In this document: positions 846 to 3,459 of the stretch, piece after piece
Position numbering within the stretch: the stretch's first letter is position 1
Layout: each line of letters starts with the position of its first letter
Origin: a virus
Virus record (IMG/VR): IMGVR_UViG_3300020020_000801
Location: 1-28,992 of that record
DNA: 28,992 nucleotides
Direction: 5' to 3' (one strand)
The notes under the pieces: model-generated
What the model saw: only the letters and a program-made list of their open reading frames with translations
Databases searched by the model: none
Told to the model about the DNA's origin: nothing
Translations under genes and position numbers: made by a program

Positions 846-1882
846 GATTCGAAGACGAACGCTACATCCGCGTTTACACGCGTGACACGACCACGATGGT
901 GATGCTGTCGTGGGAAGCACGCGCGCTCATGTACGAGGTCTTCCGCAAGGTGGACCGGGCCGGGCTCCTGGACCTCGGGGCTGACGGCCTCGATGCGCTG
1001 GCCGCTACGGTCCGCATGCCCCTCGATGTTGTGGGGCGGGCAGTCCCCGAACTCATACGTAGGAAGGTTATTGAGCTCAGACCCGACGGCCTACTCATCT
1101 GTCCAAGGTTCGTGGAGGCTCAGGAGGCCCTCCTAAGCGACAAGGCCAGAGCTCGTGCGTCCAGGGAGCGAGCAAGAGACCTAGCCCGCGCCGTGGACGA
1201 AGGCGTCACGCCATGTGACACGCCGTCACGCCATGTGACAGACGGTCACGAGGCGAACGAAAACGTCACGTCCAGTCACACGCCGTCACGCGCCGTCACG
1301 CGCGGTCACTCTGAGCCTTCTGAGCCTTCTACGCCTTCTACGCCTTCTGAGAGAGAGAGGCCTTCGGCCCCGTCGCCGCAAGCGGCTCCTCCTACACCGC
1401 CAGTGACTGTAACCGGAGGCATCGCCGGTAACGCCGTCAACGGCAACCTGGGGCAGCCTGCCATTCCATGCCTGAGTCAGGAATCGACGAAGCCGTCCAG
1501 GAAGCCTCACGCGACTGGGCACCGAATCCCCACGGGCTGGGCCCCATCCGAGGCCACCGTCGAGTACTGCCACGGGCTTGGCGTGGACCCGATTCCCGTA
1601 GTGGCTTCGTTCGCCGACTACTGGGAGGGCGTCCCTGGGTCGAGGGGCGTCAAGGTCACGTGGGACGGGACGTTCAGGAACTGGGTCAGACGGCTAGTCG
1701 CTGACGGCAAGGCTCCGGCATGGCGCCCCCCGAAGCTGGACGAGTTCGGTCAGCCGCAGCGGTACACCGAGTGTGGGCTCCCCATTTTCCGCTCTCCCGA
1801 CCGAGACGACTTCATCCCCGACAACGAGGAAGAAGCCAGGAACCTGATTCTTTACGGGCGAAAGAAGGTCGCAAATGTCTGA
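842..1882 (+). CDS. phage replication initiator / helicase-loader-like protein
   Basis: A 346-residue protein with three parts. Residues 1-95 look like a winged-helix module (WEARALMYEVFRKVDRAG ... VVGRAVPELIRRKVIEL), as in the N-terminal DNA-binding domain of phage O-type initiators and DnaD-like loaders. Residues 115-225 are a low-complexity Ser/Thr/Pro linker. Residues 226-290 (IPTGWAPSEATVEYCHGLG ... FADYWEG ... VTWDGTFRNWVRR) match the pattern of the DnaT-like ssDNA-binding/loader domain, with the W...F.NW signature. It lies directly before a DnaB-like helicase, which is the expected position for an initiator/loader. The linker DNA carries a striking repeat array, described separately, as lambda O carries its origin. 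The family assignment comes from pattern recognition; the exact role (initiator or loader) is inferred. Confidence 0.68.
   Translation: MRFEDERYIRVYTRDTTTMVMLSWEARALMYEVFRKVDRAGLLDLGADGLDALAATVRMPLDVVGRAVPELIRRKVIELRPDGLLICPRFVEAQEALLSDKARARASRERARDLARAVDEGVTPCDTPSRHVTDGHEANENVTSSHTPSRAVTRGHSEPSEPSTPSTPSERERPSAPSPQAAPPTPPVTVTGGIAGNAVNGNLGQPAIPCLSQESTKPSRKPHATGHRIPTGWAPSEATVEYCHGLGVDPIPVVASFADYWEGVPGSRGVKVTWDGTFRNWVRRLVADGKAPAWRPPKLDEFGQPQRYTECGLPIFRSPDRDDFIPDNEEEARNLILYGRKKVANV
1205..1309 (+). repeat. iteron-like array: GTCAC/GTGAC boxes every 10 bp
   Basis: GTCAC occurs at 1205, 1225, 1245, 1265, 1275, 1285, 1295 and 1305, and its reverse complement GTGAC at 1215 and 1235. The starts are therefore spaced exactly 10 bp apart, with one degenerate position (1255, GAACG). 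The left part forms two GTCAC-5 bp-GTGAC dyads and the right part five direct copies. Ten base pairs is close to one helical turn, so all boxes face one side of the DNA. The array lies within the initiator gene. Placement and phasing suggest a replication origin bound by that protein; this is an inference. Confidence 0.6.
1315..1348 (+). repeat. 9-bp tandem repeat (GCCTTCT core) x4
   Basis: GCCTTCT recurs at 1315, 1324, 1333 and 1342, exactly 9 bp apart, and is followed by a purine run (GAGAGAGAGAGG, 1349-1360). It encodes a Ser-Glu/Thr-Pro triplet repeat in the linker of the initiator. It directly follows the 10-bp box array and may be part of the same origin (a strand-asymmetric tract) or may simply be a coding micro-repeat. 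Confidence 0.55.
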
Positions 1883-2141
1883 TCCAGAGCCGGTGCCGAG
1901 GCCATGGTGGTGGACTGCCGAGGTCGACGTGGACTCGCATCTCCAGCGCCAACGGGCCTACGGAATGGCGGATGCGGTTTTACAGACGTACCTGGACTTT
2001 TTGCCGAAGCTGGAAGCCGAGCTCGCGGAGGCGCTCAAGGACGTTCTCGACTGCCGAGAGGCGATTCAGGGCTGGAGCGACCTGGTGGAAGAGCGTGCGA
2101 GGGAACTCGCAGAATCGCGTGAACGCGAAGGGGGTTGGTAA
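1875..2141 (+). CDS. hypothetical acidic helical protein (88 aa)
   Basis: Overlaps the end of the initiator gene by 8 nt (ATGTCTGA) and ends in a TAATG joint with the helicase gene. After a Trp/Pro-rich start (PRPWWWTAEVD) residues 35-85 form a long charged helix (YLDFLPKLEAELAEALKDVL ... LVEERARELAESRERE), probably a coiled coil. No catalytic motif or membrane segment is visible and no family is recognised. Its position between initiator and helicase suggests a replication accessory role, but this is only context. Confidence 0.62.
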   Translation: MSDPEPVPRPWWWTAEVDVDSHLQRQRAYGMADAVLQTYLDFLPKLEAELAEALKDVLDCREAIQGWSDLVEERARELAESREREGGW

Positions 2142-3130
2142 TGGTGGATTCGTACGAAGAGAAGGTCCGTAAGTTCCGAGAGCAACAGGCGGCCAAGCCG
2201 AAGCCGGCGCTCCACGTCGTGGGACCCGCAGGCGCGGTGAAGCCGGAGCGGACCCTCGCCGATGCCGTGCAGAGCGGCATGGCTCACCTGGCCAAGGGGC
2301 CGCCAGTGAATCCGGTCCTCACCGGCTTCCGGGATTTCGACCTCCGAATAACCCCGCTCGAGCCGAAGCAACTCACCATCCTCGGAGCCGACCAGGGCTC
2401 AGGCAAGTCGACGGCGGCGTTGCAGATCACCCTGCGAGCCGCAGCGAAGGGGCATAGCGTTGTCTACCTAAATCTCGAGATGCCCGAGGAGTCGCTCGGC
2501 ATCCGGACCGTAGCCAACTACGCCCAAGTACCGACGGGGCGAGTCTTCCGCGGCGAGGCCGGGCAGGACGAGTGGACGCGGATAACCAACGCGGCGAAGG
2601 AGATCTGGGGGCCCTCGCATCGCATCGCGCTCGGTAACCGCTCCGACCACGCCGAAGCCGGCGCAGCGGCCCGGTTCTGCGCCCAGGCCCGGGAGACCGC
2701 GGCCAAGCGCGGCGAGCCCCTGGCCCTCATCGTCGTGGACCACGCACTCATGCTCTCCATGCCGGGTAACCACCGCGACGTCGATTCCGCAGGCAAGGCG
2801 CGCGCGGATTGGCTGAAGAACCTCGCGGAGGCAAACAACTGCCACGTGCTGGCCCTGTTGCACATCACGCGCGCCGCTGCGACGCAGGGCTCGATGCCGA
2901 GCCTCAACCAGCTCGCCTCGTCGGCGTGGTTCGCGCGACATGCGGACAACGTTTGGATTCTGCACACACCTCGCGGACCGGACCACACATTCACCGGCGC
3001 GCCGACCAAGCTCGCGTGCCAGAAAGGACGGTACGGCGACACACCCGTGGTGGAGCTCGAATACCGCTGCGGTGTGCTCTGGCCGTGGACGCTTTACGAC
3101 ACGGACGACGGCGGAGGTCGCAGGCTATGA
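2141..3130 (+). CDS. DnaB-like replicative helicase, RecA-fold domain only
   Basis: A 329-residue protein that would unwind the phage replication fork using ATP. Visible motifs: Walker A GADQGSGKST at 82-91; the DnaB-type LNLEMP motif at 110-115; Walker B LALIVVDH with Asp200; LLHITRA at 239-245, equivalent to the sensor region; and LASSAWFARHADNVWIL at 258-274, corresponding to the SG..IEQDAD.V segment of DnaB. The N-terminal primase-binding domain of full-length DnaB (about 450 residues) is missing, replaced by about 50 residues of linker, as in several phage single-domain helicases. ATG 2141 was chosen because it forms a TAATG joint with the upstream gene; a TTG at 2135 is in frame but less likely. 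It ends in an ATGA overlap with the nuclease gene. A DnaB-family annotation is secure, hexamer and loader partner are inferred. Confidence 0.85.
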   Translation: MVDSYEEKVRKFREQQAAKPKPALHVVGPAGAVKPERTLADAVQSGMAHLAKGPPVNPVLTGFRDFDLRITPLEPKQLTILGADQGSGKSTAALQITLRAAAKGHSVVYLNLEMPEESLGIRTVANYAQVPTGRVFRGEAGQDEWTRITNAAKEIWGPSHRIALGNRSDHAEAGAAARFCAQARETAAKRGEPLALIVVDHALMLSMPGNHRDVDSAGKARADWLKNLAEANNCHVLALLHITRAAATQGSMPSLNQLASSAWFARHADNVWILHTPRGPDHTFTGAPTKLACQKGRYGDTPVVELEYRCGVLWPWTLYDTDDGGGRRL

Positions 3131-3459
3131 GCGCCCCCGAAGCCACGCTAAAAACCGAGGTTCGAGCCCTGCTCAAGGCCCTGGGGTTCTGGGTGCTCAA
3201 CAACGAGCAGGGCCGACGTGGGCGCTTCGTCTTCGGCCTCGGTATCGGCTCGCCTGACCTCGTCGTCGTTGTGCGCGGCAAATTCTGCGGCCTTGAGCTC
3301 AAGGTCGGAAAGAACAAACCCACGGCGGAGCAGCTCGCGTGGGGCGCCGAGCTCGTGGCGAACGGGGGCGAGTACCACATTGTGCGCAGCCGGGCGGATG
3401 TGATGGCCCTGGTGACCCGGTGGCGGAATCGTGGCGAGGTAGCGGCGTGCATTGGGTGA
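3127..3459 (+). CDS. VRR-NUC domain nuclease
   Basis: A 110-residue stand-alone VRR-NUC protein of the PD-(D/E)XK superfamily. The core is readable: GLGIGSPDLVVVV with Asp44, GKFCGLELKVGK with Glu57 and Lys59, then TAEQLAWGAELVANGGEYHIVRS, the typical Q..W...L...G....V... tail. Length fits the family (about 100-120). Such enzymes cut DNA at branches or ends; in phages they often sit beside helicase genes, and here it overlaps the DnaB-like helicase by 4 nt (ATGA), so a role in replication or recombination intermediates is likely. All expected catalytic residues are present. It is the last gene before the intergenic gap. Confidence 0.85.
   Translation: MSAPEATLKTEVRALLKALGFWVLNNEQGRRGRFVFGLGIGSPDLVVVVRGKFCGLELKVGKNKPTAEQLAWGAELVANGGEYHIVRSRADVMALVTRWRNRGEVAACIG

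Follow-up and report, generated by a model that had tools for sequence, protein, structure and literature searches.

The window (the whole stretch of DNA analysed here, a linear virus record of 28,992 bases) carries within its replication initiator gene an array of short boxes spaced one helical turn apart, which, judged by sequence comparison, is very probably the initiator-binding half of a phage replication origin located in the initiator's own gene. The best reading of the locus is that of a lambda-like, intragenic origin composed of one-turn boxes and an adjoining low-complexity tract, because the box word, its spacing and the order of box orientations recur in the corresponding gene of other phages.

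The box array and its gene

The array (1205–1309, + strand) consists of ten GTSAC boxes in eleven slots of exactly 10 bp, with starts at 1205, 1215, 1225, 1235, 1245, 1265, 1275, 1285, 1295 and 1305; the sole failing slot, at 1255, reads GAACG. This count agrees with the first-pass annotation, which had described ten boxes at exact 10-bp intervals with only the 1255 position degenerate, and had noted that the first four alternate in orientation, as two dyads, while the last five are direct repeats. That order is seen on the + strand, with the fifth box also in the forward direction: an alternating block (1205–1249, +) reads forward, reverse, forward, reverse, forward and includes two GTCAC-N5-GTGAC dyads; the degenerate slot, GAACGAAAAC (1255–1264, +), follows; and a direct-repeat block of five forward GTCAC boxes (1265–1309, +) completes the array. 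The G, T, A and C columns of the box are invariant in all ten copies, and in the five spacer columns the commonest base reaches only 4–7 of ten. As GTSAC is not enriched across the whole window (74 occurrences versus 73.7 expected), it is the clustering and phase that are special, and a window-wide scan for period 10 gives its strongest signal at the array. GTCAC and GTGAC are the same palindrome but for the central base, and box orientation taken alone could therefore be dismissed as trivial; the order of orientations is probably real, because it recurs in the homologues described below.

The array encodes the peptide repeat VTPCDTPSRH, VTDGHEANEN, VTSSHTPSRA, as previously stated, with VTRGH next. 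When the protein was held fixed and codons were drawn at the phage's own usage, none of 5000 draws reached ten of the eleven slots, the maximum being seven. The slot-by-slot product of box probabilities for the fixed protein is ~1e-8, and the per-slot probability is 0.03–0.12 for a box in codon frame 1 or 2. As no resampling exceeded 7/11 slots, the encoded peptide cannot account for the array, which upholds the earlier argument that protein selection alone is insufficient.

Abutting the last box is a low-complexity tract (1310–1360, +), a candidate unwinding element, made up of pyrimidine-rich 9-bp repeats and then GAGAGAGAGAGG. Tandem repeat analysis with TRF assigns period 9 to 1310–1351, and the strongest period-9 signal in the window is this tract directly behind the array. 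It has an A+T content of 45% versus 36% across the gene, and a pyrimidine content of up to 79% over 33 nt. Tract asymmetry of at least 0.85 is found in 39% of initiators versus 4% of control ORFs (the survey is described below); a codon-shuffle test confined to the tract was weak (12 of 114 initiators), so the asymmetry is partly a product of amino-acid composition.

The gene that houses the array (842–1882, +; 346 aa) had been called a replication initiator, an assignment supported by a match of aa 18–284 to phrog_1408 (replication initiation protein; 7e-15). Its N-terminal domain (~aa 1–120; 842–1201, +) is predicted by AlphaFold to be a winged helix with a long C-terminal helix (mean pLDDT 80–84); the nearest solved folds are winged-helix regulators, at a weak E of ~0.007, and the domain is proposed to bind the boxes. 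The C-terminal DnaT-like domain (aa 229–287; 1526–1702, +), whose Pfam DnaT score of 0.0047 is under Pfam's cut-off, shares 35–45% identity with other phage initiators and is proposed to be the single-strand or helicase-loading part. Beginning 363 bp into the gene, the array sits in the linker between these two domains, so that domain searches and structure prediction bear out the lambda-ori-like, inter-domain position claimed for it. Downstream lie a small ORF in the initiator–helicase interval (1875–2141, +), a DnaB_C-type replicative helicase (2135–3130, +; start TTG 2135 or ATG 2141; Pfam DnaB_C 1.2e-26, phrog_19 1e-30) and a VRR-NUC/phage endonuclease-like protein (3127–3459, +; phrog_93 2e-15). 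The order initiator, small ORF, helicase is similar in two other loci, L022 and L105.

GC skew lends the origin reading little support. Where an inflection at about 1.2–1.4 kb had been anticipated, the window has a weak minimum at 1573, in a linear contig that starts only ~1.2 kb upstream of the array. The mean skew shift in a first family set was small (+0.030, s.e. 0.009), and GTSAC-array sets of other phages gave no consistent change across the arrays.

Recurrence in other phages

Ten array-bearing ORFs share the N-domain of the window's initiator at 32–58% identity. They were retrieved by a box-pattern scan of viral contigs, hence the presence of an array (four boxes) in them is not evidence; at the sequence level, what counts is the order, the extra boxes, the frame shifts and the junction with the tract. 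A scan of viral contigs with the N-domain peptide recovered no homologue, and searches of the same contigs with the whole initiator, helicase and portal recovered almost none. The C-domains of the ten ORFs are mostly unrelated to that of the window (L282 is DnaD/O-like and L267 partly similar).

Two of the homologues (L303 and L282) have exactly the order forward, reverse, forward, reverse, then six forward boxes, and a third (L329) has three forward–reverse pairs and then five forward boxes. Shorter versions of this alternating-then-direct order occur in L362 and L301, three forward–reverse–forward–reverse blocks in L334, and only direct repeats in L311 and L319; L267 and L328, in which the box steps are less regular, were handled poorly by the chain finder. 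Where the blocks of L329 and L303 meet, the step is 11 bp, which puts later boxes in a different codon frame. The last box is read in frame 1 in L303, L328 and the window, and in frame 0 in L329, L282, L301 and L362. The junction GTCACTC is common to most of the homologues and is followed by a repeat-rich tract. DnaB is encoded directly downstream in L329, L328, L282 and L267, whereas in L334 a DnaC-like ATPase comes before it; the neighbour in L311 is DnaC-like. The alignment of related phages suggested in the first-pass annotation thus finds boxes and phase kept while codon frames and spacers diverge (spacer identity 36%, versus 27% expected from composition), the reverse of the refuting outcome named there, in which the peptide repeat would be conserved and the boxes lost, and its interpretation of the array as a candidate origin gains support from homologue order and phase and from the initiator gene context.

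Two further features of these homologues concern individual members. L301 has the same 10-mer as the degenerate slot, GAACGAAAAC, and there too it lies between boxes, although spacer identity among the homologues is otherwise only 36%; the slot may be a functional gap separating the blocks. In L362, an endonuclease-like segment at 1732–3231 (T5orf172/GIY-YIG-like by PHROG and Pfam names) separates the N-domain from the array, which suggests a domain inserted into an initiator.

Four GTSAC boxes at 10-bp spacing occur in at least 120 viral contigs. Among the matches listed, 85 of these contigs have the array inside an ORF of 150 aa or more (the longest ORF covering it on either strand), giving 49 non-redundant ORFs; most carry it at 0.3–0.55 of their length, GTCAC predominates on the coding strand in 48 of the 49 and GTGAC in none, and replication initiation, primosomal and DnaD-like proteins lead the annotated families, with some families unannotated. 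The 45 bases past the last box fall in the gene's least complex tenth for 58% of the 10-bp arrays among these matches. Some of the listed 120 contigs hold plain tandem repeats outside initiator-type genes. Two initiators picked on protein alone (L070 and L122, the latter from a Lysobacter prophage) have GTCAC four times at 10 bp with a purine tract immediately after. A scan of 274 cellular genomes found one 10-bp array, one 13-bp array and no 11-bp array; the 9-bp arrays, present in nine of the genomes, resemble exact tandem repeats of coding sequence. At 11-bp spacing, four GTSAC boxes are present in at least 120 contigs (L384–L503), in initiator-like ORFs, and the box may be used at two pitches. 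A second GTCAC run, near 10-bp steps, lies within the N-domain codons of L122, L070, L267 and L264.

A survey of 165 loci with a common C-domain, reduced to 114 non-redundant initiators selected only by that domain, compared local self-similarity at each lag with synonymous codon shuffles. At z above 3, lag 11 was found in 24 initiators, lag 22 in 24 and lag 10 in 11, with lags 13, 19 and 25 near zero, versus one, two and none respectively among 205 control ORFs from the same loci; periodicity at 10, 11 or 22 bp therefore marks 43 of 114 initiators versus 3 of 205 controls (P = 8e-19). Short lags (5–8, 12 and 14) are also raised in initiators, largely from low-complexity tracts, and a period-specific score, with neighbouring lags subtracted, peaks at 11 bp (28 genes). 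Counted over 61 N-domain clusters, lag 11 occurs in 11, lag 22 in 15 and lag 10 in 9. A replication set of 48 genes, selected solely by a DUF1376 N-domain, gave lag 11 in 18, lag 22 in 10 and lag 10 in one. The same method recovered the lambda ori iterons (lags 23, 24 and 44) and found no one-turn signal in TP901-1 rep or the mycobacteriophage initiators. Lag-10 matches were further vetted by the period-specific score and inspection; L061 and some others were rejected as box arrays, being simple purine repeats. One-turn spacing, earlier called unusual, is thus not peculiar to this phage, whose array is one case of a recurrent, probable origin design; periods of 11 or 22 bp occur more often than 10 bp.

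Spacing class follows N-domain type, DUF1376 with 11 bp and HTH_36-like with 22 bp, and the boxes differ between clades. Among them are GTTSAAC, placed at multiples of 11, TCAAAA, in Rhodococcus phage Jace, and CCCASTGGG, present in 14 of 84 genes versus 0.85 expected and placed in the N-domain codons of some genes and the linker of others; GTTSAAC, CCCASTGGG and GTSAC are all odd-length palindromes with a G/C centre.

Several individual loci are worth recording. One DUF1376 gene (L188, gene positions 312–398) has an 11-bp box array and then AACCA(A/T/G) heptads in exact 7-bp steps; at least three such heptads occur in 65 of 84 DUF1376 genes, and a period of 7 passes through all codon frames. 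In the related linkers of L063 and L088, CTATAG/CTATCG cores 11 bp apart stay in place even as C-runs in the spacers give way to G-runs and PPY in the peptide to GGY. Initiators of elements from further bacterial groups, Actinobacteria among them (L115, L118, L147 and L005), show 11-bp periodicity with other boxes.

Alternative readings and a proposed mechanism

The boxes might be a docking site within the origin for a host protein, being read mainly by a factor common to many bacteria. The same GTCAC box does occur with N-domains not detectably related to that of the window, so one protein family need not be its only reader; remote homology, convergence and reading by a host factor are all conceivable. 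Other initiator families, however, use the same design with quite different boxes (GTTSAAC, CCCASTGGG, TCAAAA), and the tie between spacing class and N-domain type (DUF1376 at 11 bp, HTH_36-like at 22 bp) likewise points to the initiator as the reader, making a mainly host-read site unlikely. Also unlikely is an operator or silencer array through which the initiator or a host regulator controls transcription of the replication operon, with the origin elsewhere. The winged-helix N-domain resembles regulators, and bound boxes would affect transcription through the gene as well, but the array is not at a promoter, lying 363 bp into the gene; 10-bp arrays usually abut a low-complexity tract; and the arrays track initiator genes, often with DnaB or a helicase loader encoded next downstream.

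Arrays of direct repeats at one-turn spacing can also act as partition sites, as in parC of R1 and pB171, and a centromere-like site of a plasmid-like prophage (compare ParR or TubR, with 10–12-bp repeats) would look similar; among the window and locus genes scanned there is no partition gene and the neighbours are helicases, so this reading is very improbable. Least credible of all, with only a slight chance of being right, is that the array is a by-product of protein-level tandem repeats in a flexible, slippage-prone linker and has no DNA function. A 60-bp duplication signal at 1197–1309, the fact that six 10-bp units equal 20 codons, allowing arrays to grow in frame, and the variable linkers of such initiators would all suit it. 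Set against these, 10 bp is no multiple of a codon, synonymous resampling does not reproduce the boxes, the boxes are exact while spacers diverge, and control ORFs lack such periodicity (3 of 205); the 11-bp steps that move homologue boxes between codon frames largely refute it.

Taking lambda O (PMC7466680, PMC5043065) and pSK41 Rep (PMC5703833) as analogues, we infer how the array, as the initiator-binding half of an origin, would be bound, the DNA opened and the helicase loaded. The winged-helix N-domain would bind one GTSAC box per helical turn, so that protomers align on one face of the DNA, as head-to-head pairs in the alternating block and head-to-tail in the direct block. This nucleoprotein array would bend or strain the DNA and open the tract at 1310–1360 directly past the last box, and the DnaT-like C-domain would capture the exposed strand and load the DnaB-type helicase encoded next door. 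B-DNA has a pitch of 10.5 bp, from which ten 10-bp steps would drift by about half a turn, and 11-bp steps the opposite way; the complex would accordingly have to over- or underwind the DNA, or writhe.

Known origins and wider significance

In lambda ori, the initiator sites lie in the middle of gene O, in its linker, adjacent to a strand-asymmetric unwinding tract (PMC7466680, PMC5043065). The window is alike in having candidate sites in the linker of the initiator gene and a helicase gene nearby, where lambda has a helicase-loading gene; its adjoining low-complexity tract is a candidate counterpart of the lambda tract. The lambda locus (L166) has four 18–19-bp inverted-repeat iterons at 20, 24 and 23 bp; boxes one to four of the window's array, which make up two dyads 20 bp apart, resemble these. 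Unlike lambda, the window has ten boxes of 5 bp in exact 10-bp steps, of which half are direct repeats, and its initiator has a different N-domain, with no Pfam match to Phage_rep_O_N. In pSK41 of Staphylococcus, Rep boxes lie within the rep gene and are bound by a winged-helix N-domain, and the linker encoded by the origin is dispensable (PMC5703833). Boxes within the initiator gene and a winged-helix N-domain (predicted here) are common to both, but pSK41 has four Rep boxes and a C-domain that binds host DnaG primase, where that of the window is DnaT-like, and the window's initiator has no Pfam match to RepA_N (PF06970).

The iterons of Rep_3 plasmids are ~17–22 bp long. In these plasmids (P1, F, RK2, R6K), helically phased direct repeats stand beside an unwinding element (PMC5043065), as phased direct repeats here stand next to a tract that is a candidate for one. 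Rep_3 iterons differ in being long, usually outside the rep gene and bound by one monomer each; the boxes here are 5 bp at 10-bp spacing, and the window's initiator has no Pfam match to Rep_3. The closest named sequences for the C-domain are the RepA-like initiators of the mycobacteriophages Marvin, Babsiella and Xeno, which differ in having an unrelated N-domain and in which no comparable one-turn array was found. Phage primosomal or initiator proteins with DUF1376 share a DNA-binding-type N-domain, a box array in the linker, a tract and often a DnaT-like C-domain, but have an 11-bp period, other boxes and, in the 65 of 84 noted above, the heptad tract; DUF1376 gave no Pfam match in the window's initiator (E 9.9 with a local profile). 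The array is best classed as a variant of the intragenic-origin type outside the lambda O, RepA_N and Rep_3 families, from which it is excluded because their defining domains or iteron lengths were looked for and not found.

A literature search found no description of one-turn box arrays in phage initiator genes, a field in which older single-phage reports may exist. An evenly balanced proposition is that these arrays form a large, largely undescribed class of origin, in which the initiator binds at every turn as a one-faced filament, N-domain, boxes and tract swap as a cassette among unrelated helicase-loading C-domains, and DUF1376 is one such origin reader, with an 11-bp pitch. The comparisons suggest origin recognition as a function of DUF1376 and related N-domains. 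Most phage origins are unmapped, and a signature that is helix-phased, out of phase with codons and linked to the initiator would make origins readable from sequence alone in the sampled viral contigs, and probably beyond them. It also offers a natural system for relating initiator pitch (10, 11 or 22 bp) to protein assembly.
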